This document shows, one piece after another, positions 1 through 57,500 of a stretch of DNA of 64,000 nucleotides. Source of the stretch: Tridacna crocea (taxonomy: Eukaryota; Mollusca; Bivalvia; Cardiida; Cardiidae); NCBI GenBank assembly GCA_943736015.1, contig OX031058.1, positions 2,929,001-2,993,000 on the forward strand. Reading direction: 5' to 3'. Each line of letters starts with the position of its first letter. Within the stretch, counting starts at the first letter, position 1. A program made the position numbers and the translations under genes. The notes under the pieces are model-generated. The model made no database searches. It saw nothing but the letters and a program-made list of their open reading frames with translations, and was not told the DNA's origin.

Positions 1-115
1 ATCTCAAATAGCAACTTATAGCCTAAGGGATTTTTTGTTCTTTAATACTTAAAACAAAAAAGAAAATTGTCTTCTTTTAGGCTACCTGTTCTAAATGGAT
101 GTCAACCCCATGTTG

Positions 116-350
116 TTAACCCACTACCACACAATCCCTCGTTTTGACACCCAGAAGAATATCATTCATTACAACATTGTGGGAAATAGAGAAATTGCTT
201 ATAACAGACAATTTCTCGTTTTCTCACAATATTTTTTCCCTTATATGGTACTCGTAGTTATCTCAACTCACAAACTCTTTGAAATGTTGTTTGCAACCTC
301 TGTCAATCTAGACAAGTCTAAAACTTTGTAGTCTGGTAACCATATCTAAC
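116..350 (+). mobile_element. TTAA-MITE, full, diverged
   Basis: A-end TTAACCCACTACCACACAAT; B-end decayed. The hairpin is of the variant type, with ATTGCTTATAACAGACAAT at its centre. Confidence 0.75.
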
Positions 351-715
351 AGTGTTTGTGAGGTGAAAAAGAGAAAAAAAACGACAATAGTTTCTCTTTT
401 TCAATAATATTTTCTTCTTTCCTTTAAAACATCTAATTGTCTGTTCTTATCTCAATGTTCTAATCTGTATCATCGAAAAGTCTTAAATTTTATTGTTTTC
501 AATAATTAATGTAAGCATAATTGCATTAATAGTCAGTGTATAACTGTTATAACTGCAATGGCATATACAACAGTATTACACTAACTGCTATTTTCAACTT
601 CTGTCACTTCTCCCTAAGATTCCAAACTTCTCCCTAATTCTGCTGGAAGGAGAAGTAACTTCTCCCTAATTTTGGAGGCTAGCTTAGTCCCTGCATCGTG
701 GGTTGTCCCTGGTGG
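350..715. other. Unannotated AT-rich stretch
   Basis: No coding sequence. A short local repeat CTTCTCCCTAA recurs three times near 607-672. Otherwise nothing recognisable. Confidence 0.5.
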
Positions 716-739
716 GCACCAAATATAACCGGTAGTGAA

Positions 740-822
740 AAATATATATCACGGCTCGACTGGGATTCGAACCCAGGGCCGCACGATATAATCACCAAAT
801 ACCTGTACTCGGCTACATTAAC
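740..822 (-). repeat. tRNA-derived SINE fragment
   Basis: On the minus strand a B-box-like GGGTTCGAATCCC is preceded by an A-box-like GTAGCCGAGTAC. GGCTCGA and TCGAGCC flank it like a tRNA acceptor stem, but the anticodon arm is not intact, so it is a SINE head rather than a working tRNA. Confidence 0.5.
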
Positions 823-1569
823 ATGGAAATAATTGATCAAATGATGGTGTTATTATCATTATTTCAGTTACATCAGAGTGACAGCCCACACAATCATGTA
901 TGTCCTATCACAGGAATTTGACATTCTATATTGAAAATAATTGATAAAATGAGTAAATAAAAAATACTCACCTATACAAAAGAAACACAAACCTGGATTA
1001 CCAGCAACTCCACATAAGTGTGTTTGGTAATCCTTTAGCATACACCTTTTCACCGAAGATATCTGTCATTTTTTACAGCTTTTTCGACAGTTGCAAGCCA
1101 TCAAGCAGGCCATTCGCTGATGTCACTACATAGGCCCACCATAAATGTTCTCTCGGAGTCCACTGTGGGCCTTTGCCTTGTTTTCTATGACCTTGGCTCT
1201 AGACTCACAATATAATGAGACAAGGCCAGATTTAAATATTGGAATAATTAGTATAACTTGGCGTAATCTTTTTCTTGAATCAAGAATCAAGGGCTGTTTA
1301 TGTAACAAGGGATTGTTTGATAAATTGTTGATAATTTCATTTCCGTGCATCACGAAAAATGACCAGTCAAATAAGGCTATTGCCAACAGAGTCACGTCCT
1401 CTGATGGGCTTTTCCCTATTCGCACATGTGACATATCTTTTCTAAAATAAAAAAGAATATCGAGAACTATTTTTGTTTGGCGCTTCTGCAAAAATATGTA
1501 GTATCATACAAAGTATATAAATACATTTTAAAACGAATAAGAAAATGAAAGAAATATTTTCTATAGGCT

Positions 1570-1798
1570 TTAACCCTTTACCAAACAAAAAAATTTTAGA
1601 CTGGTCCAAATCGAAAGCAATTGCAGACGACAAAATAACCACAACTAAAAAATTGAAATTTGTTACTAGCAGGGTAGAATACATTGTGGGAAAAGGAGAA
1701 AATGCTGGTTACCAGCATTTTCTCCTTTTCCCAAAATGTTTTCAAAAGACTTCTTTCTCAGGGTCGTTAAAAGTCGGGATTGTGTGGTAAAGAGTTAA
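1570..1798 (-). mobile_element. TTAA-MITE, full, canonical
   Basis: TTAA at 1570-1573 and 1795-1798. The central palindrome (about 1680-1742) is nearly perfect, with GGTTACC at its centre. Confidence 0.9.
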
Positions 1799-1935
1799 AA
1801 AATAGTGATGTCAGCAAATGGCCACCTCAATAGCTTTTAATTGCCAAAAAAGCTGTAAAATATCTCCGGTGAAAAGGTGTCTACTTAAGGATCACTGATC
1901 ACTGAATGTCACAGAAATACTTAAGGATCGCTGAA

Positions 1936-2212
1936 TGTCACAATCCCATCTGGTTGGCTCAGTGGTGTGCGTGTCAAACTTGTGATGTTGTGGTTTTGAG
2001 TTCGATACCCACTTGAGGTGAACCTTCTTTGCGGCGTATTTTCACCTCTCACCTCTGCTGAAGCACATGAGAAAAGTAGTCGAGGCTTTGGAAAAAAAGT
2101 TGTGTTAGTACTGGTGTGAGAAAGCCAGGAAACATATGTGTGTCACTGACTGCCATGATATGATCTTAGCTGTTAAATTGGTGTTAAACCCCAATATAAC
2201 CATCATCAGTCT
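1936..2212 (+). repeat. tRNA-derived SINE
   Basis: It starts with an A-box-like TTGGCTCAGTGGTGTGCG and a B-box-like GAGTTCGATACCC. The body contains GAGAAAGCCAGGAAACA and the tail GGTGTTAAACCCCAATA. A second copy with the same body lies at 28876-29080. Confidence 0.75.
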
Positions 2213-2719
2213 GAATGTCACAGGTACATTATGGTGTTATCTGTTACTAGGGTAAAGGAAACTGTGATCACTCTTCGCTTTGTTGGTGAATTTAGGTGGG
2301 TAAGGCATTTTTGTGTTATCGCAGGTACTAGGGGAGTATTATTTTTCATATTTTAATATCACTTTAATTTCATTATAGAATGTTAAATTCCTGTGGTCCT
2401 ATATACCTTAGGCTTGAAGTGTCTTGCCATAGGAGACTCCCAATTGAGGCTTGAACCTGTGGCCTCCAAAAATAAAAAGGAATGAAAGTCCTGCAAAGGG
2501 AATTTGTGATTCTGCAATAATATTGATGGACAAAGGATGAGCTTTAGTAATATTCTCAAATCCTGAATTTATGTGATGCTTTAGAAAAAGAAAATACTGT
2601 TAAAGAAAACTACTCAAGTCTATCAAGTCTAAGTTAGTAAAACACATCTCATGTAAGGAACTCAACTTTAAGTCAGAAAATGAGTCTGTCAATGGATATA
2701 ACAGAGCAAAATAAGAAAC

Positions 2720-2948
2720 TTAACCCATTACCACACAATCCCTACTTTTGAGGCCCCTGAGAAAGAAGGCTTTCGAAAACACTGCAGGAAAAGGAGAAAA
2801 TGCTGGTAACCAGCATTTTCTCCTTTTCCCACAGTGTTTTCGACCCTTCCAAGTACAAATTTCAATTTTTCAGTCACCTTTATTTTGTTGTCTGCAAATG
2901 CTTTTAATTTTAACCAGTCTAAAATATTGTCATGTGGTAATGGGTTAA
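2720..2948 (+). mobile_element. TTAA-MITE, full, canonical
   Basis: TTAA intact at 2720-2723 and 2945-2948. The hairpin centre is GGTAACC. The ends read CCCATTACCACAC and GTGGTAATGGG, a matched inverted pair. Confidence 0.9.
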
Positions 2949-3586
2949 TGGAGCTCCAGATAAGAGAGAGTGATGGTATTCTAAATCCATTATTTTTCTC
3001 CTAAACCCTATGTTATGGATACTCATTGGAATTATCTCAATGAGACCATTCTAATGAGTACCCATAACATAGGGTTTAGTGGAGAATAATTGTTATGGGA
3101 GACCACTCCTTCATGCATAGCTTCATCCCGATATAAGCACAATACCTGACCCTGCGTTGGGGAGATAGCTCTTTGGCTCAGTGCTTATGGTATTGGTCTT
3201 TTAAACCATGAAAAACGAGGATATTTGCACGTCATTGGTTCAAATCCGGCTTTTGTGTTTTGGCTATGCAATTATTGCAAACATTCATGTTCGTAAAATT
3301 GGGGCTCGTCCGGATTGGCCATTGAATCATTCATCCCAATTGTTGTCCCAAAACGGACTTGTGCTTAATACGGCTTTGAGTCATCAATAAATGATGACTT
3401 TAAGAAGGAATGTGTTACGGGAGACCACTCCTTAAACCTTGAAAAATGAGGATATTTGCCGGTTATGGGTTCAAATCCCCTGAGATGCGGTTTGTGTTTT
3501 GGCTATGCATTTGTTGCGAACTTTCATTTTCGTAAGATAATACTATAGGTTTCGAAATCAAGATCACTCTCTCTGTCTGGAGCTCT
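2949..3586. repeat. Palindromic MITE (GAGCTCCAGATA family), split by a SINE
   Basis: The left end GGAGCTCCAGATAAGAG lies at about 2951 and the right end CTCTGTCTGGAGCTCT at about 3568. A core palindrome runs from TAAACCCTATGTTATGG to CCATAACATAGGGTTTA (3003-3081). Bases 3092-3535 between core and right end are foreign (SINE-like). Sister copies: 13088-13276 and 29380-29570. Confidence 0.65.
3092..3535 (+). repeat. tRNA-Lys-like SINE, dimeric or duplicated
   Basis: A tRNA-like head (GATAGCTCTTTGGCTCAGTG, anticodon-loop-like TCTTTTAAACC, B box GGTTCAAATCC) lies at about 3170-3255. A second, shorter copy of its 3' half (ATGGGTTCAAATCCCC) lies at 3463-3485. GGGAGACCACTCC occurs at both 3097-3109 and 3419-3431, bracketing one 320-bp unit. 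Confidence 0.6.
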
Positions 3587-3651
3587 GAACTTGTTTTTTG
3601 TTAAGATTTTCAAGACGCGTAACATTAAAATCTTACTGATTTGTCCAACAG

Positions 3652-3836
3652 GGGAGCTGATAGGAGCTATGTGTAAGAAATATGGCTCCCACTTGTACAG
3701 ACAATGTAAGGCTACTGTTCTGGAAGGGATATGCAGCAATTTAGAGAGAGAACCCATGATGGAAAGCAGTTTTACGGAGCAAGAAGAAACAGAGAAACTA
3801 ATAGAAAAGCTGTCCAGTTCTCCAAGAGGGGAGAAG
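3652..3836 (+). CDS. HEAT-protein exon (first one found)
   Basis: The acceptor is TTTGTCCAACAG and the donor AAG|GTCAGT. The exon begins with the last two bases of a codon and ends in phase 0. It encodes a helix pair (ELIGAMCKKYG, CKATVLEGIC) and then an acidic, Ser/Glu-rich linker (SFTEQEETEKLIEKL). The donor has C at +3, so TCA|GTAAAT five bases further on is a weaker alternative. No start codon can be assigned here, and earlier exons were not recognised between 1 and 3650. Confidence 0.75.
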
Positions 3837-6800
3837 GTCAGTAAATTGCGCAACAGTTAACCTGTGTATGGTCAAATATAACTTTTCATATCGTTATTGT
3901 TTTACTTGACAAGAAAACTTTAGACCAATCCCAAATGAAAGCATTTACAGATGACGAGCTAGATGTAAAACAGATTACGATTTTTGAAAGGTAAAAAAAT
4001 GGGAAATAAATATTGTGGGAAAAGGAGAAAATGCTGGTTCTCAGCATTTTCTCCTTTTCCCACAATAATTTCAAAAGTTCTTTTCCATGGGAGTGCTAAA
4101 ACACAAGATTGTGTGGTAAAGGTTTAAGGTGTCAAATCACTCAAATAGACTCCTATATAATTCAATGTAAATTCCGCTAATTCCACACGTTGTCACATGT
4201 TCCACGACATTCGTTCATGAATAATATGCTCCAAATGTTTCAGAAACTTCACTAATCCCTTGATTTTCCAACAAATACATCCATCATGACCGATTGGATT
4301 TTTCACAAAATTAGGTCAAACATGCGTACCATGTCTTTTTCCTAACCATCATAGGTCTGGTACCCACATGTACTTCACAATTTCCAGCATCCCTACACAA
4401 GAAATAGTCCTGAAAAGAAAGATGGATTTTAGCTCATTCAGCACAAAATACCCTTTTTTCAAAACATCAGGTGAAAATAATGTGAGAAAAGTAATCATGC
4501 AATGAAGCACGCACTATCAAAAACAGGTTTCATTTTTTTTAAAGAACTACTTTAGCACCATACGACCCGGAAGTACTTCTCTAGGTGATTTGACACCTTA
4601 ACCGTTTTACCAAACAACAACAACAACAACAAAATAATTTAGGTCTGCTCATAATGAAAGCATTTGAAGAGAGTAAAGTAGATGTGGCAAAATTATGGAA
4701 TTTGTCTTTGAAACGGTAGAAAAAATTGTGATGTAAGGAAAAATGCTGGTCAGCAGCATATTTTGTCTTTTTCCACAATGTTTTTAAAGCTTGTATGTGA
4801 AAAGTTTAACTTTGGATTGCATAGTACAGGATTAAGAAAGATTACCAAAGAACAAATTTTTAGACTTGTCCAAATGTGAATCATATACATATGACATATA
4901 AAGTCTTACTCAAGTAGTGGGACTTGCTTTTCAAAATAGAAAAAAAACTTTTTGGGTAAAAGGAGAAAATAGTAGTGTCTAGCATTTTCTCCTTTTCTAA
5001 CTAAGTTTTCAGAAGCCTTCCCTCTCAGGGTCCTAAAAACGCGGAATTGTTTCACAAAGCGATGTCATTGTGGAAAATGGAACAGTTGCACATCACAATC
5101 TCCTACTGCTTTTCCCACTTCATTTTTCGTCTCCGCCATACTCCTTGAAAAAAGTATAAGTGAATCTGCATAAAGTATCAACCCAGATTAGCCTTTGCAG
5201 GCAAACTTTGGTCAAAACTTTTTGCTGTTGGTCAATTTTCTGCACATCAAATAACCAGTCAGATGTTTGACAAAATGGATTTATGTTATGATCTCCATGA
5301 TGTAATGCATAATGTAGATTGCATTTACCTCCTTGTTGCCATAATTTACATTCTATGATAAATGTTTCCTTCTTTTGCATTTACTTTGTGTTTTTTTTTT
5401 TTTGCAAGAGCTGAAAGAGCTTAACTTTTTACCAAACGACAAATTTAAAGACTGGTCCAAATTGAAAGCATTTGCAGATGACGAAATAAATGAGACTGAA
5501 AAATCGAATTTGATTTGGAAAGGGTAGCATTGTGGGAAAAGGAGAAAATGCTGGTAACCTTAGGGTTGTCAAAAGTCGTCATTATGTGGTAAAGGGTTAA
5601 TTTTAGAAATATTGACCCTTCATAACCGTCCAACCCGTGGTTTTTTATCAAACTACTCATGGAGGGAAAGAAAATCTATGTCTTTTGAATACATGCACAA
5701 TGACATCTACTCATGGAGGGAAAGAAAATCCATCTCTTGTGAATACATGTACAACGAAATCTGCGCCACTTTTGAAGTATTACCGATGATGCTCACTAGA
5801 TGAAATAAATTTCAATCTTTCTCACAAAAAAATCAGCAACTATCCTCTATGAATCTTTCCAGAGACATAGTACAGAGGCTTCACAGATATTTCATGACAC
5901 AGCTGGGTGGAAATCTTTAGAAACATGGATGAAGTAAGTAGATTTTGAGCTGGCATTACACTCAATATTTCCTACTTTTTTCACGGCTAAACAACACAAT
6001 TCAAGCTACCTTAAAATTGTTGTCTGCAAAATTTTGCTGTTTGGGACACAGTTACTGGCCATCATCTGGTTCAGTATAAAATATTTCGTTTTTCTGCAAA
6101 ACAAGTATGTACAACCCGTTATTGTGCAGTGCTGACTTCTAATGACTTCTAATGAGAAAGAAGGCCTTTGAAAACATTGTAGAAAAAGGAGAAAATGCTG
6201 GTAACCGGCATTTTCTTCTTTTTCTACAATGTTTTTTACCATGTGACAGACAAATTTCATGTTTGAATAACATTTAAATTGTTTTCTTCAAAAGCTGTAA
6301 ACTTGGAGTAGATCCTTGTCTAAAATTTTGTCATGTGATAATGGGATATAAGTAGTTCTACTGATATTCCAAATATTATGATTAAGAAATAATCTTCTTT
6401 CTATCGTGGTATATCGTTCAATAAACCACAGTTGTGAGTTATGAGGCACAATAAATAATCCACGAGGGCGATAGCCCGAGTGGGTTATTCATTGCGCCTC
6501 ATAACTCACAACGTGGTTTATTGAACGATATACCACGATAGAAAGAAGATTATTTCGATTCTAACATGTCCAATTCTTAATGAAAGGAAAACAAGTTCAA
6601 ACTAAGAGTAAAAACGCGGATGAAGATTATGTTCCATTGAATAACTCACTCATTGAATGACGTCACTCGATATCGGATGACGTCACTCTACATGGATTGT
6701 CGCAGATTTTACCACGTTTTCCTTGCACTGTGTTTATAGGGCCAAAGTCACGTGTCATGTTAGAATGTGATATAAATTCTGTGTTCTGTAAAGGGCCATT

Positions 6801-9800
6801 CAGGGAGGAGACTTTTATCCAAATTGATTTTCAAAAATAGGGAATATTTTTTACATAAACAAGACAAATGCACTAAAGCAAAGTCTTTGAACAATTAAAA
6901 AACCTTTTACAGCACAGCAAAGTTTTAGACCCTTCCATATTACAGCTTTTTTCAGAACACAAGGCAGGTGTTTTTCAAATGATAGCAATTGTCATTGAAT
7001 AGCTAGAAAACATTGTGGGAAAAGGAAAAAATGCTGGTTACCAGCATTTTCTTCTTTTCCCAGAAATGTTTTCCAAAGTCCCCTTCTTCAGAATCGTTAA
7101 AACTGGGGATCATTTTCTAAAGACTTACTTTTTTTTCCATTTAGGTGTCTACAGAACATTATAGAAGGTTGTGAACATCAGTTTAATGACTACGTAGACC
7201 AAGAGTTGTTAGACCTTGTATTCCGCTGTTTAACTCATACCAACAGATTTGTACGAGAGACGGGATACTATGTATGTTCAAGTCTTGTTGCGTGTGGATC
7301 CGTGCAAGAAGGTATGTAAACCCTCTGCTGGCTGCCAAATTTGTAGATTTGTCAACACTGAAAGCGTAACATTTAATTATTTTCAGACGACGTTTGTCAT
7401 TACCTTACCAAAAGACAAATTTTAGACTCTCCTTAATTGAAAATATTGCAGACAAAAACTTTGATACCAATGAGCGTGAAATTTTTGATAGAGAAAAGAA
7501 CCTTGTGGGAAAAGGAGAAAATCCTTTTCCCACAATGTTTTTGAAAGCTTCCTACCCAGAATCATATCACTTTGGATTGTGAGGTAAGGGGTTTTAAGGG
7601 GTTGATGTTTTTGTCTCTGAAGGGATAGAAAATATTGTGGATAAAAAGGGAAAATGCTGGTTACCAGTATTTTGCCTATTATACAACAATGTTTTCAAAT
7701 TCAAATACCTCAGGCTTGTGGAGACACAGAATTGTTTAGCTCTTTACCACAAAATCATGACTTTTGAGGCTCCTGTAAAAGAAGCATTTTGAAAACATTG
7801 TGGGAAAAGAAGAAAATGCTGGTAACCAGCATTTTCTCCAGTTCCCACAATGTTTTCTACTAAATCAAAGAAAAATTACACCAATTGAGCCACACTGAAA
7901 TTGTCGTCTGCAAATGCTTTCAATTTGAATAAGGCTAAAATTATGTCGTCTGGTAAAGGGTTAATAAAGTGTAATGTATTCCAGTCATATGATCAGTATA
8001 GTCTGTTCAAGATCCAAACTGACAGAATCGAATAATATCTGTAAACTTGGCCTCTTCGAATAGCACAAGGCCAGTATGACTCAGTATTACATCCAAAATG
8101 GATGACAAAAAGGCGACAGATCTTGGTTGTCCAGTACATGAATATAAATTGTTATTATGTTAGTAAATTTGCTATGGCGAAGTTATGAGTCTGAGGTCTG
8201 TGATGTTAGTCTTGAGCTGTGGGCTAAAACTGTACATCTCAGACCTGTAACTGGGCCAGTATGAAACAGTGTTCCAGCTAGCGGGGAATAGAAGGGCGCG
8301 GCGCCCTGCCCCTCCTTTCAGACGCCCTGCCCTTTCTCTGGACGCCCTGCCCTTTTTCTGGAAACCCTGCGCCCAAGATTGCCTTACGTTCAGTATTGTA
8401 ACCTCTAATCTAAACTTTGCCACAAGTCCGTTAAAGACATCATGAATATCCGCCTTTGAATATACAATCCAATTAACAGCGTGTCACTAATCCCCTCCAG
8501 GCAGCGAAGTGTGAAAAGATGGACCCTGACTGTATATTACAAGTCCGTCAGTGTACACAAGTGCTGAGAACAATAGAGACAATTATCCATCATTGTCTTT
8601 TATCAGTTTTATGTTCTATTTAAACGGTTAACCGTATCTTGAAGTTAGGTGTTTTTATTCAACAATATTGGTGTCTCCGAGGACAATTTTTTCTTTTAAA
8701 GTTTGCTATCCATCGCGATTTATCGTTAATGTCGAAGATCTTGCTAAATTTCCCGTATCAAGTTACATGTTCTGAGTTTAAGGTGCATGAATGGTAAAAT
8801 TACCTTTTATGAAGTGTTTTCTGTTCATAAACAAATTTTTTTTTCTTAGATTTACTCCTGGTTTCAGTATTAATTGAAATAGTGATGTTAACACTCGGGT
8901 AAAATCGATGAGTCAGCAAATTAATCTATCGTAAGTCGGGAAGTGGCGCATTCCTAAAGTGGACCGAGAATAACACCACAGCATGCTGTTGACTTACAAT
9001 TTGTAGAATATATGTCAAAATGTCCATAAATGGAAATTAGATACACACCCAGCCTCATTTAAATTTGTAGGTTCTGAAGGGATGTTACTGGATGAAGACA
9101 ATGCCATTTTAAAGTACGGACGTCAGTTCTGTGACTATCTTGCAAAGGGTCTGGCTGACAACTGGAGCCAGGTATCATTACTCATTACCAAATGACAATA
9201 TTTTAGGTTTGTCCAAATTGAAAGCATGTGCAGATGACAAAATAAAAGTGACTGAAATTTAGAAATTTGTGTTTTGAAGGGTAGAAAACATTGTGGGAAA
9301 AGGAGAAAATGCAGGTTACCAGCATTTTCTCCTTTACCCACAGTGTTTTCTAATGGCTTCTTTCTCAGGGTCGTCAAAAGTAGGTATTGTGTGGTAATGG
9401 GTTAACTCTTTACTAGACGACAAAGGTTTCGACTGCACAAAATTCAGAACATTTGCAGATGACAAATTAGATGTTGGTAAAAAATAAAAAATCTAGAATG
9501 ATGATTTTTTTTGTCTTGTGGGACAGACAGGAAGAAAAAAAAAAGGTTTTTTTGCCAGAAATGTTTTACTGTATCAGACAGTGTAGGTAAAGGTCAGACA
9601 CAGATACTTAACTACACTGTCCAGAAAAGCACATCTAGTAAGGTTTATGTTTTGATGGTTATCTTCTCTTGTTGAAAGGATTCCCCTAAGATTGACACTT
9701 AACAAAGTGCCATCAAAACATAACCATCACACTTTTTTGGACACAGAATTTTCAATGAATATCAAGTAACTGCAGCTAAACGATGGCACTGGCTTTTTAC

Positions 9801-24800: not shown

Positions 24801-27800
24801 TAAGGTTTCTGAGTTTTAATGGCCCTGATGGAGAAAACTTTTAAAAACATTGTTAGAAAAAGAGAAAGGCTGGGAACCAGCATTTTCTTCTTTTCCCACA
24901 ATGCTTTCTGCCCTATCAAGGACAATTTTCTTCATTTTTTACCTACCATGAATTTGTCATCAGCCAATGCTTTCAAATTAGTTTAACCTTTTACCAACTA
25001 ATCCCTGGTTTTTATGACCCTGAGATAGAAGCCTTATGAAAACACTGTGGAAAAAGGGAAAAATGCTGGTAACCAGCATTTTCTCCTTTTCCCACAATGT
25101 TTACTAAGCCACTAAAAACAAACTTCTATTTTTGATTTACATTTAATTTGTCGTCTGCAAGTGCTATCATTTTGGACCAGTCTAAAATTTTGTCGTTTGA
25201 TAAAGAGGTAAGACTGTCATTTGGTAAAGATGTGACTGAAGCAAGCACTGTGTTGTAAGCTGTACGGTACGAAATGTGTAGTCACTTCCAAGATGGCGGA
25301 CTGTTTACATGAAGAAAGGTAGGTGTCACATTTTATCATCAATAACTTTTTTTCTTGAAACCTTCGATTCATGATACTTATAATATATTGTGGGGAAATG
25401 ATGTGGTAAGCCTCGTGTTATATAGCAAAGAGCCAGTTCCATTATTCGATACGGTATATCGGCGTAAACATTGCCATTCGGTAAAATTTAAATTTGAAGT
25501 GAGGAACTTGCATCATTTTTAGTTATAGAATGGAAAATAAGCCAATGCAGTGGATGAAGGCTGTTGTTTCTGTAGGTATTCAGCATGTGCATTCCAATGA
25601 TAACGGTAATTTCTGTGAAATATGTCTAGAAAGACCCGAAAACATGTGTTTTATATATCGCTAATGCAGCGGTGTAGTCCACATCAACAAATTCACACAC
25701 AGCGGTGTAGACACGATATTTTTTTAACGGTTTAGACACGATTTAAAGCACAATGTATGTACGGTTTAGACACAATTGGCTTGGTCTTGAAATGAATGTA
25801 TTCTTTCCTGAATATAATGTAACTTGGCGTTAATTCAGAATCCTGACAATTGGCACCAATAGTTCGAGACAGTCTCCTTTATCACCAACACCCACCAAAG
25901 GAACAGTATGGAACCGACAAGGGATCATCGGGGAACGAAAAGAGATAGTTGGGAACAAAAGAGTGCACCAAGAGATTATTTACGATATTATTTATGTAAT
26001 AATCAGTATTATATCACGAAAAAATAAATTATGAAATTATTAATGAATGTTTGTGCAATTATAAATCAATGCCAGCATGCTGGCAGCCATAATTTCAAAC
26101 ATTTACTTAGTATGACTAACCAGCCCGGACTTGCCAATCATTTTTATTTCGGAGTTGTTTGAAATACTTTCGCTGATTGGTATCTTGGTATCTGTTTGTT
26201 TAATATATAGTTAAAGATGCCCGTCTGCAGCCGGTGAGCAGAAACGCTGTTAAATTTCAATTAAAAAAAAATAGCATGGTACAGAAAATCGGTCTTTTGT
26301 GTACACAAGGATAAATTACTGGTCAAAATGTATGGTGTAACTGAAAAAGAAACGCAGAGGTTTGTGTTTCTCTGGTTTCTTCGGTATCTGAACATTGGTT
26401 GGAAAAAAACTGGCTGACGATCGAAGCTGTAAACAATGGCGGTGCGTCACGGAAATTTATTGTTGCTTTCCGCCTAGAGTTGGATACGGTGTAACTTGTA
26501 TATAGGCCGCGACCTCCGTCTGAAAATCAAGGCTGCAACGTACAGAGAAGCCTACATTTTCTTTTGTTTTCCTCAGTATACGCAGGGCGAAGGTCAAATA
26601 CAGTCATGAGACAGAATGCATGATCATTATACGAATCTACCCGAGTTAATAACGGATATCAAAAATCTTCTATTCAAAAAACGGAAACGACAAGTCTTTA
26701 GATGGAAGGTCGCAACTCAGCGAAATGCATTTTCTATCAATTGTAATCAACCATCAGGCGTAATATTTGGTATGAAGATATAATGACTGTATTATGATAA
26801 AATCAAAATGAGTTAAAATTGGCTTAAAGGTGGGTATTTAGAATTTTTACATCTCACCAAATTAAAAATATATATCACTGAAATTCATATGAAAAAAATA
26901 ATACAAATCATCAATAATTACGATTCATAAAATTACACAATTTTTTTTTTGATGGTGTTCCCTTAAAAGGCTACGATTAAAATATGACCGGTAGGTTAAA
27001 AGGGGATGGACTGGAGTAAAAATTACGTAATCGTTGTTTTTACCCTAAAAGGAAAAATCTTAAGAAGGAATTCCGTGTGATCAATATTCACAATTTTCAT
27101 TTACCATAGTCAGTTTGATTTCATAATACAAGGGTCATGGATTTATATTGATAAAATCGAATGTTACCCATTAAGATAAGTTATCTCGTAATTTTTATTT
27201 ATTTTTTTTATTTATTCTTATCGTTTTTCGAATGTTTCTTTCGGCCTCGGACTACGTCTGATTGGTGAATAGGCAGGCCCGTTCGCGAAGAACCAAAGAA
27301 ATTTGAATTTCCCATATTTTGGTAGAAAGACAGTCGATGATTAGTGAAACACTTTCAAAACATGAATAATTCCCATGGCATCTTATTTGATATAAGTTTG
27401 TCTTTTAGAATATACAGGATAGCAATAATACTGTATATCCAAAAGCCCTGCTGCTATTTTTGTTCCATGAAGTGTCGAACAACACTTTTGAAATCTCCTC
27501 CAAATGGGCATTGGCAGCACGCGAATGTCGTGCAACTGAAATATAAGATGGACAAAGTTTTTTTTTAAAGCAGGAAAGTCTTTCCAGTTCATGTCTAGAC
27601 TACAGATGCTGTCAAAATTTTATGTCTAAACCGTACAGAATATAAAGCTTATGTCTGTGTCTAAGCCGTTCAGAAAACAACGTGTCTACACCGCTGTGTG
27701 TGAAATTGTTGATGTGGACTACACCGCTGCATTAGCGATGTACAAAACACATGTTTTTGGGTCTTTCTAGACATATTTCACAGAAATTACCGTTATCATA

Positions 27801-28692
27801 GGAATGCACGTGCTGAATACATACAGAAACAACAACCATCGTCCACTGCATTGGCTTATTTTCCATTCTATAACTAAAAATGATGCAAGTTCCTCACTTC
27901 AAATTTAAATTTTACCGAATGGCAATGTTTACGCCAATATAACGTATCGAATAATGGCACTGGCTCTTTGCTATATAACACCGAGGCTTACCACATCATT
28001 CCCCCACAATATATTATAAGTATCATGACTCGAAGGTTTCAAGAAAAAAAGTTATTGATGATAAAATGTGACACCCACCTTTCTCCATTTAAACAGTCCG
28101 CCATCTTGGAAGTGACTACACATTTCGTACCGTACAGCTTACAACACAGTGGCAAGAATCCCAAAAAAATTTAGTGTGGTTTATTGTTACCAATGAAATG
28201 TCCACTTATCCCATTACCATGGTTTTCAAGACCCATGGAAATTTGACTCCAGGAAAATATTGACATGGACAACAAATTAAATATGCCTCAAAGGGTAGGA
28301 TTTGCTCCAGAAAGCTGACACATAGTGGGAAAAGGAGAATATGCTGGTTATCAGTATTTTCTCCTTTTCCCACTGTGTTTTTGAGCCTTTCTGAAACAAA
28401 TCCTATTCTTTGAGACACATTTTTATGTGTTCTCTGCAAATGCTTTGAATTTGGACTAGTCCAAAATATTGTCATGTGGTAAAGAGTTATATGACCTCTA
28501 ATTCCTACGTATTTCATCCACAGGTATTTAGAGTTGCTGCCCCATGACCTTGGAGCTCCGTCTTCCAACTTTCCTTGTCACCACATGATGGCTCCTACTG
28601 GCCCAGGGTTTTCTGGATCAAGGGTCCTCCCTGGGAATGAGTTCGATATGCTTCCAAGGCAAGGCTCACCATGGCCCAAAGGACTTCCATAA
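3652..28692 (+). CDS. Spliced gene for a HEAT/ARM-type alpha-solenoid protein (5' end missing), 16 exons
   Basis: Joined exons: 3652-3836, 5863-5933, 7145-7311, 9071-9171, 10878-10987, 11875-11977, 12418-12504, 13976-14066, 17130-17181, 18065-18174, 19542-19643, 20248-20425, 21741-21882, 23213-23296, 24296-24405, 28524-28692. The 1862 coding bases keep one frame across all junctions and give 619 codons plus stop. The product is Leu/Ala-rich with helical repeats; HEAT-like cores (VREAA, VRDAA, VRQGA) recur at about residues 258, 302 and 341, with another FVRET at about 120. A Cys/Gly/Lys-rich segment (CGSLAPKMGKG, about residues 405-450) interrupts the repeats and is probably a loop. No signal peptide or membrane segment is seen. 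HEAT solenoids usually scaffold protein complexes; the specific role is unknown to me. The first exon starts mid-codon, so upstream exons exist. No AATAAA was seen close after the stop. Nearly every intron carries TTAA-MITEs. Confidence 0.85.
3898..4127 (-). mobile_element. TTAA-MITE, full
   Basis: It starts about 60 bp after the exon ending at 3836. Its right TTAA (4124-4127) is also the left flank of the next element. Confidence 0.85.
4128..4597. mobile_element. Second TTAA-flanked element, 470 bp, GGTGTCAAATCAC termini
   Basis: TIRs GGTGTCAAATCAC (4128) and GTGATTTGACACC (to 4597) are flanked exactly by TTAA on both sides. The interior has no ORF. It lies between two TTAA-MITEs and shares a TTAA with each. 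Confidence 0.7.
4598..4809 (-). mobile_element. TTAA-MITE, full, diverged
   Basis: The B-end carries a (CAA)n expansion (4613-4632). Bases GGGAAAAGGAG are lost from the left hairpin arm. Confidence 0.75.
4832..5063 (-). mobile_element. TTAA-MITE, full, diverged
   Basis: The B-end ATTACCAAAGAACAAATTTT is clear. The hairpin arms are degraded and the final TTAA is lost. Confidence 0.65.
5064..5420. other. Intron sequence with weak repeat traces
   Basis: No coding sequence. AGATTAGCCTTTGCAGGC at 5186-5204 resembles one arm of the CGC-palindrome repeats found further right. A T-tract lies at 5390-5403. Confidence 0.35.
5421..5600 (-). mobile_element. TTAA-MITE, half hairpin deleted
   Basis: TTAA at both ends (5421-5424, 5597-5600). 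The left hairpin arm is present, while the right arm and about 50 bp are missing right after the hairpin centre. Confidence 0.85.
5655..5764. repeat. 54-bp tandem duplication
   Basis: CTACTCATGGAGGGAAAGAA begins at about 5655 and again at about 5709, with about 85% identity between the two units. No known family. Confidence 0.8.
5775..5850 (-). repeat. Fragment of the GAAATAAATTTCGATC repeat
   Basis: Matches the 3' end of the dispersed repeat seen at 21150-21605 and 52355-52825 (GATGAAATAAATTTCAATCT then ATCCTCTATGA). It ends about 12 bp before the exon at 5863. Confidence 0.6.
5863..5933 (+). CDS. HEAT-protein exon
   Basis: The 71-bp exon lies between ...TGAATCTTTCCAG and AA|GTAAGTAG. It enters in phase 0 and leaves in phase 2. 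It encodes ...IFHDTAGWKSLETWM, the first helix of the repeat that continues in the next exon (KCLQNIIEGC). The upstream acceptor tract abuts a fragment of a dispersed repeat (5780-5850). Confidence 0.8.
6110..6352 (+). mobile_element. TTAA-MITE, full, covarying hairpin
   Basis: The hairpin arms read ATTGTAGAAAAAGG and CTTTTTCTACAAT: the usual GTGGG/CCCAC is GTAGA/TCTAC in both arms. The terminal TTAAs are decayed. Confidence 0.8.
6387..6555. repeat. Near-perfect 169-bp palindrome
   Basis: The left arm starts AAATAATCTTCTTTCTATCG and the right arm ends with its complement. The loop near 6465-6475 is GGGCGATAGCCCGA. A weaker inverted pair TCTAACATG/CATGTTAGA follows at 6560-6770, so the element may extend to about 6770. 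Confidence 0.8.
6895..7128 (-). mobile_element. TTAA-MITE, full, diverged
   Basis: It ends about 17 bp before the exon at 7145. The hairpin is intact apart from a few mismatches. Confidence 0.75.
7145..7311 (+). CDS. HEAT-protein exon
   Basis: The acceptor is TTTTTTTCCATTTAG and the donor G|GTATGT. The exon encodes CLQNIIEGCEHQFNDYV, then DLVFRCLTHTNRFVRETGYY and VCSSLVACG. The pattern DLVFRCL...NRFVRETGYYVCSSL is a textbook HEAT helix-turn-helix. The exon leaves in phase 1. A TTAA-MITE ends about 17 bp upstream, so the polypyrimidine tract sits directly against the insertion. Confidence 0.88.
7400..7600 (-). mobile_element. TTAA-MITE, hairpin centre deleted
   Basis: The GGAGAAAATGCTGGT centre is lost, so the arms GGGAAAAGGAGAAAA and CCTTTTCCCAC almost touch. 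Confidence 0.75.
7612..7735 (-). mobile_element. TTAA-MITE, truncated
   Basis: Keeps the hairpin and A-end only. It abuts the next copy. Confidence 0.65.
7736..7964 (+). mobile_element. TTAA-MITE, full
   Basis: TTAA is intact on the right (7961-7964) and TTAG on the left. The hairpin has one arm mismatch (CTCCAGTTCCC). Confidence 0.85.
7965..9070. other. Intron sequence with a GC-rich triplet repeat
   Basis: No coding sequence. At about 8295-8370 GACGCCCTGCCCTTTTTCTG occurs in about three imperfect tandem units inside GC-rich sequence. The remainder is AT-rich and unrecognised. Confidence 0.4.
9071..9171 (+). CDS. HEAT-protein exon
   Basis: The acceptor is AAATTTGTAG and the donor CAG|GTATCA. 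The exon encodes SEGMLLDEDNAILKYG and RQFCDYLAKGLADNWSQ, then VRLASS continues in the next exon, again matching a HEAT repeat (DNWSQVRLAS). It enters in phase 1 and leaves in phase 0. A TTAA-MITE begins only 7 bp after the exon, so intron positions +1 to +6 are all that remains before the insertion. Confidence 0.85.
9178..9405 (-). mobile_element. TTAA-MITE, full, abutting a splice donor
   Basis: Starts 7 bp after the exon ending at 9171. The right TTAA (9402-9405) is shared with the next fragment. Confidence 0.88.
9402..9520 (-). mobile_element. TTAA-MITE, B-end fragment
   Basis: ACTCTTTACTAGACGACAAA and GCAGATGACAAA match the B-end. The rest has decayed into A/T-rich sequence. Confidence 0.6.
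9625..9745. repeat. Inverted repeat, about 40-bp arms
   Basis: ACTGTCCAGAAAAG...TTATGTTTTGATGG pairs with CCATCAAAACATAA...CTTTTTTGGACA. Probably a small palindromic MITE. Confidence 0.55.
9891..10117 (-). mobile_element. TTAA-MITE, full
   Basis: TTAA at 9891-9894 and 10114-10117. The hairpin is slightly mismatched. Confidence 0.88.
10144..10348 (-). mobile_element. TTAA-MITE, hairpin centre deleted
   Basis: It keeps both ends. The right TTAA (10345-10348) is shared with the 33-bp remnant that follows. Confidence 0.82.
10345..10377 (+). mobile_element. TTAA-MITE, 33-bp A-end remnant
   Basis: TTAA, then CCTATACCAAACAATCC, then TTAA: an A-end reduced to almost nothing but still bounded by TTAA on both sides. 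Confidence 0.65.
10374..10598 (-). mobile_element. TTAA-MITE, full
   Basis: TTAA at both ends, each shared with a neighbour. It is the third member of a chain of four elements. Confidence 0.88.
10599..10765 (+). mobile_element. TTAA-MITE, degraded
   Basis: The hairpin trace GGGAAAAGGAGAAACGC and decayed B-half are recognisable. No right TTAA. Confidence 0.55.
10878..10987 (+). CDS. HEAT-protein exon
   Basis: The acceptor is TTTATTCCTTTCAG and the donor AG|GTGAGT. The exon encodes VRLASSVATRKFLQSL and RLQFYPTLLPKMCLNR. It completes the HEAT repeat begun in the previous exon and opens the next helix. It leaves in phase 2, and the Arg codon is shared with the next exon. Confidence 0.88.
11085..11252 (+). 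mobile_element. TTAA-MITE, degraded
   Basis: GAAGCTTTTGAAAATGTAGC and the hairpin remnants match the A-half. The B-half is barely visible. Confidence 0.45.
11253..11320 (-). mobile_element. TTAA-MITE, B-end fragment
   Basis: AACTGTTTACCTCCTGAGAA, then ATTTTAGATTCATCCAAATT, as in the B-end. It is cut by the palindrome that follows. Confidence 0.5.
11321..11456. repeat. Palindromic MITE, about 60-bp arms
   Basis: The left arm ATCAGCTTGTGGTTAATATG and the right arm's complement frame a loop near 11378-11395. Internal GGAAATATTTGCC-like arms also pair. Confidence 0.75.
11690..11797 (-). mobile_element. TTAA-MITE, truncated
   Basis: Left hairpin arm GTAGGAAAAGGAGAAAATGC and the A-end GGGATTGTTTTGTAAAAGG only. 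Confidence 0.6.
11875..11977 (+). CDS. HEAT-protein exon
   Basis: The acceptor is TGCATTATACAG and the donor GTG|GTTAGA, which is weak at +3 to +5. The exon encodes YYVAEGVKIYSQDTWKQI and RQLVETYIEHV. GTG|GTT rather than CAT|GTG is chosen because it leaves phase 0 and matches the phase-0 start of the next exon. Confidence 0.82.
11990..12208 (+). mobile_element. TTAA-MITE, degraded
   Basis: Starts about 13-20 bp after the exon ending at 11977. The hairpin is recognisable as GGAACAGGAGAAAGTGTTGG. Confidence 0.6.
12239..12335 (+). mobile_element. TTAA-MITE, A-half only
   Basis: TTAA at 12239-12242 and the A-end up to the hairpin centre; the second half is absent. Confidence 0.75.
12418..12504 (+). 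CDS. HEAT-protein exon
   Basis: An 87-bp symmetric phase-0 exon between TTTATCTTTAAAG and AAG|GTACAT. It encodes VDYYVEATGADNHAVREA then ACACIAELGAK, a nearly complete HEAT unit with the conserved Val-Arg-x-Ala-Ala turn. Because it is 29 whole codons, skipping it would keep the frame. Confidence 0.88.
12523..12761 (+). mobile_element. TTAA-MITE, full
   Basis: Starts 19 bp after the exon ending at 12504. It contains a small duplication of AAAAGATTGT before the hairpin. Confidence 0.85.
12758..13010 (-). mobile_element. TTAA-MITE, full, with extra B-end sequence
   Basis: The B-end appears partly doubled (two AAATTTT/ACAAAC stretches before the GCAGATGAC motif). Right TTAA at 13007-13010. Confidence 0.75.
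13022..13365 (-). mobile_element. TTAA-MITE interrupted by a palindromic MITE
   Basis: The B-end (TTTTACTCCTAACAGAATTT) at 13022-13087 resumes with the hairpin at 13277-13365. Everything between belongs to another family, so this is a nested insertion. Confidence 0.65.
13088..13276. mobile_element. Palindromic MITE (GAGCTCC family), nested
   Basis: Outer CAGAGCTCC/GGAGCTCTG pair. Core palindrome AATCGTCTCAGTGAGACGATT at 13171-13191. Lies inside a TTAA-MITE. Confidence 0.7.
13976..14066 (+). CDS. HEAT-protein exon
   Basis: The acceptor is TTTAATCCTTTGATAG and the donor G|GTAAGT. The exon encodes VCKEVMNAHIPKLLDALL and CFNDDSWPVRD, the first helix and turn of a strong HEAT repeat. It leaves in phase 1, giving Ala with the next exon. 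Confidence 0.9.
14749..14974 (+). mobile_element. TTAA-MITE, full
   Basis: Right TTAA 14971-14974; left site GTAA. Hairpin with a few mismatches. Confidence 0.85.
15120..15320 (+). mobile_element. TTAA-MITE, hairpin centre deleted
   Basis: The A-end is eroded. The right TTAA (15317-15320) is shared with the next copy. Confidence 0.7.
15317..15544 (-). mobile_element. TTAA-MITE, full, diverged
   Basis: TTAA at both ends; hairpin strongly mismatched, so one of the older copies. Confidence 0.7.
15782..16010 (+). mobile_element. TTAA-MITE, full, best type copy
   Basis: TTAA at both ends. The A-end reads CCCTTTACCACACAATCCCG and the B-end TTGTTTGGTAAAGGG. The hairpin is nearly perfect. This copy serves as the family reference in this annotation. 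Confidence 0.92.
16007..16234 (-). mobile_element. TTAA-MITE, full
   Basis: Shares the TTAA at 16007-16010 with the preceding copy, in the opposite orientation. The right TTAA is mutated to TTGA. Confidence 0.88.
16236..16285 (-). mobile_element. TTAA-MITE, A-end fragment
   Basis: CTCTGGATTGTGTGGTAAAG only. Confidence 0.55.
16461..17054 (-). mobile_element. Possible solo LTR
   Basis: Read on the minus strand, it has TATAAAAGG near 16815, AATAAATTCTG near 16520 as a polyadenylation-like signal, and ends GGCTCGTAACA at 16461. It contains an internal 75-bp duplication (TCTGATCCTGATCCAAACTG at about 16630 and 16690). The far end and target duplication could not be fixed, so the LTR call is tentative. 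Confidence 0.35.
17130..17181 (+). CDS. HEAT-protein microexon-like exon (52 bp)
   Basis: The acceptor is TTCTCTCTATTACAG and the donor AG|GTATCT. It encodes ACVACGNFVLSFPQES, the second helix of the WPVRDAACVACGNF repeat. It is the shortest exon and was placed by frame continuity on both sides. The 3.06-kb intron before it holds several TTAA-MITEs, a possible solo LTR and the SINE-like AGCTCC repeat. Confidence 0.88.
17254..17483 (-). mobile_element. TTAA-MITE, full
   Basis: Hairpin nearly perfect. Right TTAA 17480-17483. Confidence 0.87.
17538..17680 (+). mobile_element. TTAA-MITE, degraded A-half plus hairpin
   Basis: ACTTTACCCATCAAACAATC, then GGAAATGCTGGTAACTAACA. The B-half is missing. 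Confidence 0.6.
18065..18174 (+). CDS. HEAT-protein exon
   Basis: The acceptor is TTTTTTACATATAG and the donor G|GTAAGT. It encodes SSLPSLYPLFFNNLQDN, then IPSVRQGAALALSHVVKAYG, a complete canonical HEAT repeat. It enters in phase 2 and leaves in phase 1. Confidence 0.92.
18234..18461 (+). mobile_element. TTAA-MITE, ATTGCTCG hairpin subfamily
   Basis: The hairpin centre is GAAATTGCTCGTAACGAGCA instead of GAAAATGCTGGT. The ends read CCCTTTCCCAAACAA/TTTGGGAAAGGG. The same type occurs at 48111-48337. Confidence 0.88.
18458..18675 (-). mobile_element. TTAA-MITE, full, diverged ends
   Basis: Shares TTAA 18458-18461 with the previous copy. Standard AATGCTGGC hairpin. Confidence 0.8.
18750..18805. 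repeat. Short inverted repeat
   Basis: AGACAGTGTAGAT and ATCTACACTGTCT. This resembles arms of the CAGTGTAGATC palindrome family. Confidence 0.5.
19160..19360 (+). repeat. Dispersed repeat with GTCTGTCC tract
   Basis: TATACCTTCCACAATGAAGT followed by a GTCTGTCC/GTCAGTCAGTCC tract. Same layout as 23835-23930 (GTCCGTCCGTGTGTGCG), but I cannot name the family. Confidence 0.35.
19542..19643 (+). CDS. HEAT-protein exon
   Basis: The acceptor is TTTTTAATTTCCAG and the donor G|GTTGGT. It encodes EECFEEILTKVKEGLIGV followed by a polar linker (ENQPKNTEKYSSLDK) that leaves the solenoid. The donor is non-consensus at +3/+4, but the frame into the next exon is unbroken. Confidence 0.85.
19721..19965. 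repeat. CGC-palindrome repeat (AGGTCAGCCTGTGC)
   Basis: TTTAGCCATGCTCTGGCATC opens it and a palindrome AGGTCAGCCTGTGC-AGTCC-GCGCAGGCTGACCT lies at 19905-19938. Relatives at 33043-33310, 44435-44545 and 49630-49735. Confidence 0.65.
19990..20218 (-). mobile_element. TTAA-MITE, full
   Basis: Ends about 29 bp before the exon at 20248. The TTAAs are mutated (TTAG, TTAT). Confidence 0.87.
20248..20425 (+). CDS. HEAT-protein exon with Cys/Gly-rich insert
   Basis: The acceptor is AATTTGCCAG and the donor GG|GTAAGG. At 178 bp it encodes PATYGVAKKLRDNDMELH, then MYSCGSLAPKMGKGSREG, then CMDHKFRKDPEPWELCDG. This segment is charged, Gly-rich and has Cys residues around His (CMDH), unlike the surrounding helices, so it is probably a surface loop or short accessory domain. 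A TTAA-MITE ends about 29 bp before the exon. Confidence 0.87.
20724..20962 (+). mobile_element. TTAA-MITE, full
   Basis: TTAA at 20724-20727 and 20959-20962. The hairpin has GTGTG versus CCCAC mismatches. Confidence 0.87.
21063..21714 (+). repeat. Dispersed repeat bracketed by a direct repeat of about 90-105 bp
   Basis: TGTATTATGGGCTGGTGGTC ... ATTAATGATGATACTCTAT (21063-21150) recurs at 21605-21714. Between them, 21150-21605 is a copy of the TTTCATGCTTTCCGG / TATGACGTCATTTACC repeat also at 36272-36535, 48690-49022 and 52355-52825. It ends 27 bp before the exon at 21741. Confidence 0.7.
21741..21882 (+). CDS. HEAT-protein exon
   Basis: The acceptor is TTTTGTTCTATTTTAG and the donor AGA|GTAAGT. 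It encodes CIHVVAEMSGLQQFSQKV and AELLPLVSKAASFDHYTH, then INLKETVCQR, a return to helical-repeat sequence. It leaves in phase 0. The bases before the acceptor belong to a direct repeat that also occurs at 21063-21150. Confidence 0.85.
21946..22167 (-). mobile_element. TTAA-MITE, full
   Basis: TTAA intact on both sides. Hairpin nearly perfect. Confidence 0.9.
22205..22400 (-). repeat. SINE body fragment
   Basis: On the minus strand: GCAGCCAGTGGCTTTTGAAG, then ATGGATAGGTGCAGTGACTG and a TGAAATAATG-type tail. It matches the body of the SINE at 53485-53770. Confidence 0.6.
22483..22705 (+). mobile_element. TTAA-MITE, full, B-end eroded
   Basis: Left TTAA 22483-22486. Hairpin nearly perfect. 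The right end is lost after GTCATTTGGTG. Confidence 0.83.
23016..23129 (+). mobile_element. TTAA-MITE, B-half
   Basis: Starts within the right hairpin arm (TTTCCCACA) and runs to TTAA 23126-23129. Confidence 0.75.
23133..23194 (+). mobile_element. TTAA-MITE, B-end fragment
   Basis: GATTTGGACAAGCCCAAAAT then GTGGTAAAAAGTTAA. It lies directly before the acceptor of the exon at 23213. Confidence 0.7.
23213..23296 (+). CDS. HEAT-protein exon
   Basis: An 84-bp symmetric phase-0 exon between TATATATATTTCAG and TTG|GTAGGT. It encodes LPHLANNLGKRYFKMYLE and MFFDIIFRCL. The acceptor tract is a (TA)n stretch directly next to the end of a truncated TTAA-MITE (TTAA at 23191-23194), so the branch-point region is largely inserted sequence. 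Confidence 0.82.
23318..23492 (-). mobile_element. TTAA-MITE, degraded
   Basis: GCATTTGCAGATGACACATT marks the B-half. The hairpin is strongly decayed. Starts about 20 bp after the exon ending at 23296. Confidence 0.6.
23492..23743 (+). mobile_element. TTAA-MITE, full, hairpin tip duplicated
   Basis: The tip AAAATGCTGGTAACCAGCAT occurs twice in tandem (23570-23613), giving a double hairpin. TTAA intact at both ends. Confidence 0.9.
24296..24405 (+). CDS. HEAT-protein exon
   Basis: The acceptor is TTAAAATTTACAG and the donor AG|GTTTGT. It encodes TDDSALASAAASNCLAEL and AKFLGPSILKGRIEQYNP, a helical hairpin that looks like the last repeat. It leaves in phase 2. The following 4.1-kb intron is the longest and holds the 2.9-kb long-TIR transposon. 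Confidence 0.87.
24512..24582 (-). mobile_element. TTAA-MITE, A-end fragment
   Basis: GAAAATGTTTAAAAGGCCTC through TTGGTAAAGGGTTAA. Confidence 0.65.
24697..24805 (-). mobile_element. TTAA-MITE, degraded
   Basis: GAAAGCATTTCCAGATGATA and a decayed hairpin; low identity. Confidence 0.4.
24806..24985 (+). mobile_element. TTAA-MITE, diverged
   Basis: Hairpin with short deletions (GAGAAAGGCTGGGAACCAGC). The B-half merges into the TTAA at 24983-24986. Confidence 0.7.
24983..25212 (+). mobile_element. TTAA-MITE, full
   Basis: A-end CCTTTTACCAACTAATCCC. The right end is followed by an extra CATTTGGTAAAGATG piece just before the 2.9-kb transposon. Confidence 0.83.
25246..25717 (+). repeat. Left terminal inverted repeat of the 2.9-kb transposon
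   Basis: Begins CACTGTG. Contains CCAAGATGGCGGACTG at 25288-25303, a YY1-like core, mirrored in the right arm. The inner part has GCAGCGGTGTAGTCCACATC. Confidence 0.9.
25703..25776 (+). repeat. Subterminal motif array (3 units)
   Basis: CGGTGTAGACACGAT (25703), CGGTTTAGACACGAT (25728) and CGGTTTAGACACAAT (25762). Mirrored by GTCTAAACCG/GTCTAAGCCG/GTCTACACCG at 27624-27693. Could be transposase-binding sites. Confidence 0.7.
26825..26985 (+). repeat. Internal segment shared with 39484-39655
   Basis: TTAAAGGTGGGTATTTAG, ATATATCACTGAAATTCATA and TTCCCTTAAAAGGCTACG recur in order at 39484-39655. Either a nested element or a shared ancestor. Confidence 0.7.
27681..28151 (-). repeat. Right terminal inverted repeat of the 2.9-kb transposon
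   Basis: Complement of the left arm, ending CTTACAACACAGTG. The last seven bases, CACAGTG, equal the vertebrate V(D)J heptamer in letter sequence, here read inward to outward. Confidence 0.9.
28206..28490 (+). mobile_element. TTAA-MITE, full, diverged, near splice acceptor
   Basis: Hairpin GTGGGAAAAGGAGAATATGC to TTCTCCTTTTCCCACTGTG. Ends 33 bp before the terminal exon. Both TTAAs read TTAT. Confidence 0.8.
28524..28692 (+). CDS. HEAT-protein terminal exon
   Basis: The acceptor is ATTTCATCCACAG; the frame continues with YLELLPHDLGAPSSN and runs to TAA at 28690-28692. The last 50 or so residues are rich in Pro, Gly and Ser (MMAPTGPGFSGSR, RQGSPWPKGLP), so the tail is probably disordered. I saw no AATAAA in the following 150 bp. 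Confidence 0.82.
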
Positions 28693-32473: not shown

Positions 32474-32702
32474 TTAACTCATTACCAAACGACAACATTT
32501 TAGGTTTGTCCTAATCAAAAGCATTTGCAGACAACAAAATAAAAGTGACTGAAAATTTGAAATTTGTTTTGTGAAGGGTAGAAAACATTGTGGGAAAAGG
32601 AGAAAATGCTGGTTACCAGCATTTTCTCCTTTTCCCACAATGTTTTCTAAAGGCTTCTTTCTCAGGGGCGTCAAAAGTAGGGATTGTGTGGTAATGGGTT
32701 AA
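32474..32702 (-). mobile_element. TTAA-MITE, full, canonical
   Basis: TTAA at both ends. The hairpin is perfect over about 60 bp, so probably a young copy. Confidence 0.92.
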
Positions 32703-39483: not shown

Positions 39484-40018
39484 TTAAAAGTGGGTATTTA
39501 GATGTTTCACATCACACCAAATTAAAAAAAATTATATATCACTGAAATTTATATGAAAAACAATGCAAATCATCAATAATTAAGAATCATAAAATTACAA
39601 AAAAAATTTTTTGGGGGTGGTATTCCCTTTAAAGGCTACGTAGCCTCTTAAGCTATTTTTAGATTTCCCGCCAAAAATCAAAAAGCATTGTGGGAATGTT
39701 AAGTGACTGGCACGTGACTAATGACTCTTAAATTCCATAACATAACAAAAATATAATTATTTTCCATAATGTCTAGAACTTTGGACGCTATGTTTGGAGC
39801 TTCGTCTGTATATTTCCGGTATGTAAATGAACGAGTTGCTGATGTAAAAATAGACCGTGTTTCGCTTCAGTGCCGACCTTGGCTGTTGTAAATCTCTAAT
39901 TTCTCTTGTTGTCGGATGGTTTTCGATACTGGGTTTTATGCATGAAAATTAGAAGGCTTTGGGTTTATAAGGATGAGTTTTTTGTAAAATTTTCGCCCCA
40001 AGATCTGAAGGGCCACCT
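39484..40018. mobile_element. Possible TTAA-flanked element, AAGTGGGTATTT...GGGCCACCT
   Basis: TTAA at 39484-39487 and 40019-40022. Weak terminal pair AAGTGG/CCACCT. Its first 170 bp match 26825-26985 inside the long-TIR transposon, where TTAA also precedes the match. Confidence 0.45.
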
Positions 40019-56904: not shown

Positions 56905-57500
56905 TCACGTTTGCAAGTGCTTTGGAATTGGACAAGCAAGAATCTCTTTGTGTGGTAAAAATTTAGACCGTTAAAATCGTACACAGGACTGCAAGTTCTT
57001 TGAATTTGGACAAGCAAGAATCTCTTTGTGCTAATTGTACACAGGACTGCAAGTTCTTTGAATTGGGACAAGCAAGAATCTCTTTGTGCGTTAAAAATTT
57101 AGAAGGCTAAAATCGTACACAGGACTGTAAGTGCTTTGAATTTGGACAAGCAAGAATCTCTTTGTGCCGAAAACTAAGATTTAGAAGGTTAAAATTGTAC
57201 ACAGGACTGCAAGTGCTTTGAATTTGAAGCAAGAATCTCTTTGTGCTAATTGTATACAGGAATGCAAGTGCTTTGAATTTTGACAAGCAAGAATCTCTTT
57301 GTGCGTTAAAATTTAAGAAGGCTAAAATCGTACGCTGGACTGCAAGCGCTTTGAATTTGGAAAAGCAAGAATCTCTTTGTGCGGTAAATATCTAGAAGGC
57401 TAAAATCGTACACAGGACTGCAAGTGCTTTGAATTGGGACAAGCAAGAATCTCTTTGTGAGGTAAAAACCCAGAAGGTTAAAGTTGTACACAGGACATTG
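56905..57500. repeat. Minisatellite, eight units in two lengths (78 and 58 bp)
   Basis: AAGAATCTCTTTGTG starts at 56938, 57016, 57074, 57152, 57231, 57289, 57367 and 57445. Spacings 78, 58, 78, 79, 58, 78, 78 repeat every three units (about 215 bp). The unit TGCAAGTGCTTTGAATTTGG plus ACAAGCAAGAAT..GTGCGGTAAA resembles the TTAA-MITE B-end (TGCAAATGCTTTCAATTTGG). Confidence 0.92.

Follow-up and report, generated by a model that had tools for sequence, protein, structure and literature searches.

A young, non-autonomous DNA transposon family with CACTGTG ends and 5-bp target duplications in Tridacna crocea

Results

Structure of the element and content of the window

The window, that is the whole 64-kb stretch of DNA that was analysed, carries a copy of a DNA transposon at positions 25246-28151 (2,906 bp, as read from the sequence). 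Each end of the element begins with the heptamer CACTGTG, read directly at 25246-25252 on the plus strand for the left end and at 28145-28151 on the minus strand for the right end. This heptamer is one base out of seven away from CACAGTG, the V(D)J heptamer, and fits CACWRTG, the consensus of Transib ends. The preliminary description of this DNA had reported CACTGTG/CACAGTG termini sharing six of the seven heptamer bases, exactly as found here. Two direct copies of GCAAG, also read directly on the plus strand, flank the element at 25241-25245 and 28152-28156; they form the 5-bp target duplication noted earlier, and the left copy agrees with the pattern seen in the family.

The terminal inverted repeats (TIRs) are long. 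The left TIR extends over about 530 bp (25246-25775, plus strand), as defined by inverted-repeat pairing, BLAST and the family consensus, and the right TIR covers 27620-28151 (minus strand; pairing and BLAST). Positions 25246-25415 pair with 27982-28151 at 97%, and positions 25415-25739 with 27657-27981 at 94%. Using BLAST, about 530 bp of the two TIRs were aligned at 93.4%, showing that the length of about 470 bp proposed previously was slightly short, while the presence of long TIRs was borne out. In the family consensus, the left and right TIRs are nearly identical across their first 470 bp or so. When up to 3 mismatches were allowed, the terminal 26 bp were found at two places in the window as compared to 0.00 expected from 100 shuffles, far more than chance would give. 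On its inner side, the left TIR contains three copies of CGGTKTAGACAC (25702-25777, plus strand; repeat analysis and consensus). The consensus likewise has three in the left TIR, and two exact copies plus a third one base off, judged by eye, in the right TIR.

The interior (25776-27619) is devoid of long reading frames according to frame and Pfam analysis and to the alignment. Relative to the 3,349-bp family consensus, about 440-455 bp are missing from the window copy near position 26975, and the copy is an internal deletion derivative of that consensus. Positions 26603-26838 are a copy of a dispersed repeat, so that the interior looks composite; the element at L016 is itself inserted in that repeat (77% identity). 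A 150-bp interior stretch, 26824-26975, recurs alone at 39484-39640, with 83% identity by BLAST.

Other features were observed elsewhere in the window. At 32474-32702 and at 35 further places there is a 229-bp repeat whose centre is palindromic and whose ends are close to TTAACTCTTTACC...GGTAAAGGGTTAA. It is thus found 36 times at more than 180 bp within 64 kb (119 BLAST hits) and constitutes a dense MITE-like family. Positions 56912-57496 form a tandem array, in which periods of about 58, 78 and 137 bp are nested. The sole match in an Rfam scan of the window is a tRNA match of 34.1 bits at 62887-62975, far from the element. ARAGORN sees no tRNA there, and the match may stem from a SINE of tRNA origin or from a decayed tRNA.

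Copy number, target duplications and empty sites

The genome was searched over 1,048,827,098 bases in 31 contigs. With the terminal 24 bp and up to 3 mismatches, 258 forward and 257 reverse matches were obtained, as compared to 0 and 0 with a reversed-pattern control. Half of these 515 terminus matches gives about 250 genomic copies. Of 532 first-look candidates obtained with a TIR query, the best 40 were scored, and all 40 matched. Among the first 100 termini listed, all on C1-C6, 40 adjacent plus/minus pairs lie less than 12 kb apart. The pairs among the matches listed span 620-8,706 bp, 32 of the 40 falling at 2,808-4,471 bp.

Thirty copies were read, namely the window copy and L009-L037. 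L018, whose left end lacks its outermost part, was left out of the duplication count. An exact 5-bp target duplication was observed in 25 of the 29 two-ended copies. The remaining four carry 6 bp (L014), 7 bp (L030) or no duplication (L025 and L028). When the left flank of one copy was paired with the right flank of another, a 5-bp match was found in 0 of 812 cases; 2 of the 812 gave a 6-bp match, which weakens the single 6-bp case. Duplications of 8 or 9 bp, which the preliminary description had named as arguing against its own reading, were seen in none of the 29 copies. A Mutator or usual hAT origin was rejected on this count. In one of the copies read, L029, some 4.1 kb of other sequence (1850-6004) interrupts the TIR.

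The collection of genomic copies and of empty sites had also been proposed beforehand, and both were obtained. Flanks were joined for the 27 duplication-bearing copies, and a junction-spanning match was found for 9 of the 27 among the loci compared. Four junction pairs were inspected. Three of them (L016/L037, L014/L026 and L011/L031) are ungapped over the junction and show a single target copy in the 50-odd columns inspected; in the fourth (L009/L021), the two sequences differ by an indel of 4 bp within a run of TA. These empty sites are located within related repeats and confirm the boundaries of the element. Homology ends at CACTGTG, so that the boundaries extending further out that had been considered earlier as evidence to the contrary were not observed.

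The 25 five-bp duplications have a mean GC content of 23%, as compared to 35% in a resampled-flank control, and only 4 of 10,000 resamplings were as low. At the same 25 sites, the 10 bp adjoining the target duplications on either side have 43% GC. The target consensus reads AC-AWWWT-GNT (hyphens bound the duplicated bases), each marked single base being shared by about half of these sites.

Age and coding content of the family

A consensus was built from an alignment of 28 copies, without L018 and the interrupted L029. These copies diverge from the consensus by 1.3-2.9%. No long reading frame was found in the consensus, the longest stop-free frame having 91 aa, and this agrees with the coding-less, non-autonomous interior described initially. 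Of ten short frames, of which the consensus supplied six and L038 and L039 two each, none matched a Pfam family at E values up to 1; four frames of the window had no match either. The longer copies L038 and L039 share with the family the TIRs only and the TIRs plus part of the interior, respectively. Their non-shared sequence contains no frame above 100 aa.

Both longer copies have features of their own. In L038, a second subfamily with inner repeats of 1,278 bp is represented twice, at 92-3386 and at 5509-8803, the two copies being in inverted orientation and 2.1 kb apart. They are 100% identical across 3,295 bp, reflecting either an event that is very recent or an artefact of the assembly. 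L039 holds a 5.9-kb copy with the duplication ATAAT and a tandem array at 2232-3607 with units near 160 bp. Overall, it is close to certain that the family is a young, non-autonomous, cut-and-paste family.

Sequence motifs at the ends

Among the 56 ends of the 28 aligned copies, 55 read CACTGTG and one reads TACTGTG. A 9-bp YY1-type motif, CAAGATGGC, was located by motif search at 25289-25297 (plus strand) in the left TIR of the window copy and at 28100-28108 (minus strand) in the right TIR. In the family, this motif is found inside the first 70 bp of 55 of the 56 ends, and in 54 of them it sits at position 44. CAAGATGGC is the exact reverse complement of the TR5 sequence of ProtoRAG (GCCATCTTG; PMC8289069, PMC7481187), a likeness spotted post hoc; the preliminary description does not mention this site. 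In the 64-kb window it was observed twice, both times in the element, as compared to 0.28 expected; at least two occurrences were seen in 3 of 100 shuffles. The motif overlaps an ATG followed by splice-donor-like sequence (25293-25320), in which an ATG-started exon-like stretch was read directly at 25293-25318 on the plus strand, followed by the donor-like GTAGGT. The first 95 bp are identical in 10 of the 28 left ends.

The V(D)J nonamer ACAAAAACC was searched in the consensus ends. At 12 and 23 bp from the heptamer, 1 and 2 of the nine bases match, as expected from the preliminary description, which saw no nonamer at these distances. At spacers of 0-39 bp, no stretch reaches 6 of 9 matches. 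Comparison of the terminal 22 bp with viral contigs gave no exact match.

Searches for a transposase

No copy encoding a transposase was found among those read. The RAG1 family PF12940 had no match in the genome, and 14 control genomes were equally silent. A mouse RAG1 fragment also had no match in the genome, in a search run without a control. Because no working control was available, these RAG1 searches count for little. When compared to Pfam, the RAG1 fragment matched RAG1 and one chance family only, so that no separate Transib model was reached. A motif-based Transib probe was built, and its two parts match HzTransib (6pqn) with E values of 2.5e-15 and 4.2e-18. This probe had no match in the window and L009-L039, a result obtained without a positive control. 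Of the earlier reading, a long-TIR, non-autonomous transposon of cut-and-paste type with CACWRTG ends and a true 5-bp duplication is supported; the Transib or RAG1-like partner it called for was not found in the copies read.

Discussion

Comparison with known systems

The CMCT clade (EnSpm, Mirage, Chapaev and Transib) is reported to have mostly CA..TG termini and duplications of 2-5 bp (PMC12730594). The present family resembles it in both respects, a likeness drawn from ends and duplication and not from protein evidence. HzTransib is a 3,518-bp element with long TIRs and a 5-bp duplication (PMC1852546), and the family has in common with Transib its heptamer-like ends, its 5-bp duplication and its symmetric, long TIRs (PMC1852546, PMC8289069). 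In contrast to Transib, the copies of the family that were read encode no transposase. Their duplications are AT-rich, whereas those of Transib, ProtoRAG and RAG are reported to be GC-biased, a preference that is not strictly defining (PMC8289069). About 250 copies are present here as compared to one or few for autonomous Transibs (PMC4411706), a number that non-autonomous copies need not follow.

In ProtoRAG, the TIRs carry a CACTATG heptamer with TR5 located 27 or 31 bp further in. TR5 is required for efficient recombination and hardly for cleavage in vitro; it binds YY1, a factor that represses both transcription and transposition and assists the RAGL complex in locating the ends (PMC8289069, PMC7481187). 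The family shares with ProtoRAG a heptamer-like end, CACTGTG instead of CACTATG, the 5-bp duplication and an exact 9-bp YY1-type site near the inside of both ends. However, this site is inverted relative to ProtoRAG and separated from the heptamer by 36 bp (PMC8289069, PMC7481187), the TIRs measure 530 bp, and RAG1L and RAG2L genes are absent from the copies read. Protostome RAGL elements start with CACT, have 5-bp duplications and include known non-autonomous copies (PMC7204232). The family shares the CACT start and the duplication length, but its end, CACTGTGTTGTAAGCTG, misses the protostome consensus CACTWMCAAACKTYKBB at all positions 5-15 (PMC7204232).

Which transposase mobilises the family

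Within the CMCT clade, the combination of CACWRTG ends with an exactly 5-bp duplication favours Transib. The CACTGTG heptamer and the inner CAAGATGGC site, each present in 55 of 56 ends, speak for the Transib/RAG reading. The AT-rich duplications (23% GC) count against Transib, being the opposite of the reported GC bias. Also against the Transib/RAG reading are the mismatch to the protostome RAGL end consensus, the lack of a nonamer in the consensus ends and the failure to find a transposase-bearing copy among those read. On balance, we lean towards a young, high-copy, non-autonomous family that is mobilised by a transposase supplied in trans, one from the CMCT group and most likely Transib-like. 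By its ends and duplication, the family is classed here as a Transib-like, CMCT-type non-autonomous family; membership of Transib is unproven, and the Transib/RAG reading as a whole is plausible but unproven.

Other enzymes could account for the same observations. Chapaev and EnSpm elements usually make duplications of 2-4 bp, as compared to exactly 5 bp in 25 of 29 copies here. The CA..TG termini and the 2-5 bp range of the clade would accommodate a transposase of one of these types (PMC12730594). It is unlikely that such an enzyme gives the 5-bp duplications of this family. The AT-rich target preference would agree with a hAT5-type family, that is, a hAT with 5-bp duplications. Ends of hAT elements usually begin with CAG or TAG, whereas 55 of the 56 ends begin with CAC. 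Families of hAT5 with 5-bp duplications are described, in a lineage that comprises animal hATs (PMC12730594). We consider this origin improbable. The IS481EU elements were discarded, as duplications of about 4, 15 or 25 bp and TGT ends in the families shown do not fit (PMC10045372).

A derivative of a RAG1L-RAG2L (RAGL/ProtoRAG-type) transposon would explain the CAC ends, the 5-bp duplication and the ProtoRAG-like arrangement of heptamer and YY1-type site. The mismatch to the protostome RAGL consensus, notably to AAA at positions 8-10, argues against it, as do the AT-rich duplications and, for what a search lacking a working control is worth, the missing RAG1 match in the genome. This origin appears very unlikely. 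Finally, the AT-biased target C-AWWWT-G, the fact that no coding relative was seen in the copies read and the absence of two terminal sequence strings from the literature searched could point to an undescribed superfamily with 5-bp duplications, long TIRs and convergent CAC ends. Since heptamer and duplication length already match a known group, such a superfamily is also improbable.

Under the favoured Transib-like reading, a DDE transposase encoded elsewhere would pair both CACTGTG ends and cut at the heptamer border. Insertion would then occur with a 5-bp stagger, preferably where an AT-rich core lies between C and G. The long TIR may correspond to the old promoter and first exon of an autonomous element, as the ATG and donor-like sequence would suggest, and by analogy with the matching ProtoRAG site the putative CAAGATGGC site might bind YY1. 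YY1 sites are frequent in promoters. Given this frequency and the overlap of CAAGATGGC with the ATG and donor-like sequence, the site is more simply read as a promoter motif reached by convergence. It is doubtful, though conceivable, that YY1 is a recurrent and possibly ancestral partner of RAG-type transposases and not a lancelet invention. The element would then be a RAG-family (Transib-like) transposon outside lancelets having heptamer and YY1-site ends, with the site on the start codon of a lost transposase gene.

If the partner is another enzyme, CACWRTG ends together with 5-bp duplications would be insufficient to call an element a RAG relative. If it is a Transib or RAG-like enzyme, the family would combine recent mobility with RSS-type ends, many well-kept copies and a mapped target preference, and would be useful to study how RAG-like transposases pick their ends and targets. 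TR5 has been described as specific to lancelet (PMC7481187); a shared YY1-type site would let the regulation proposed as lancelet-specific be tested elsewhere.
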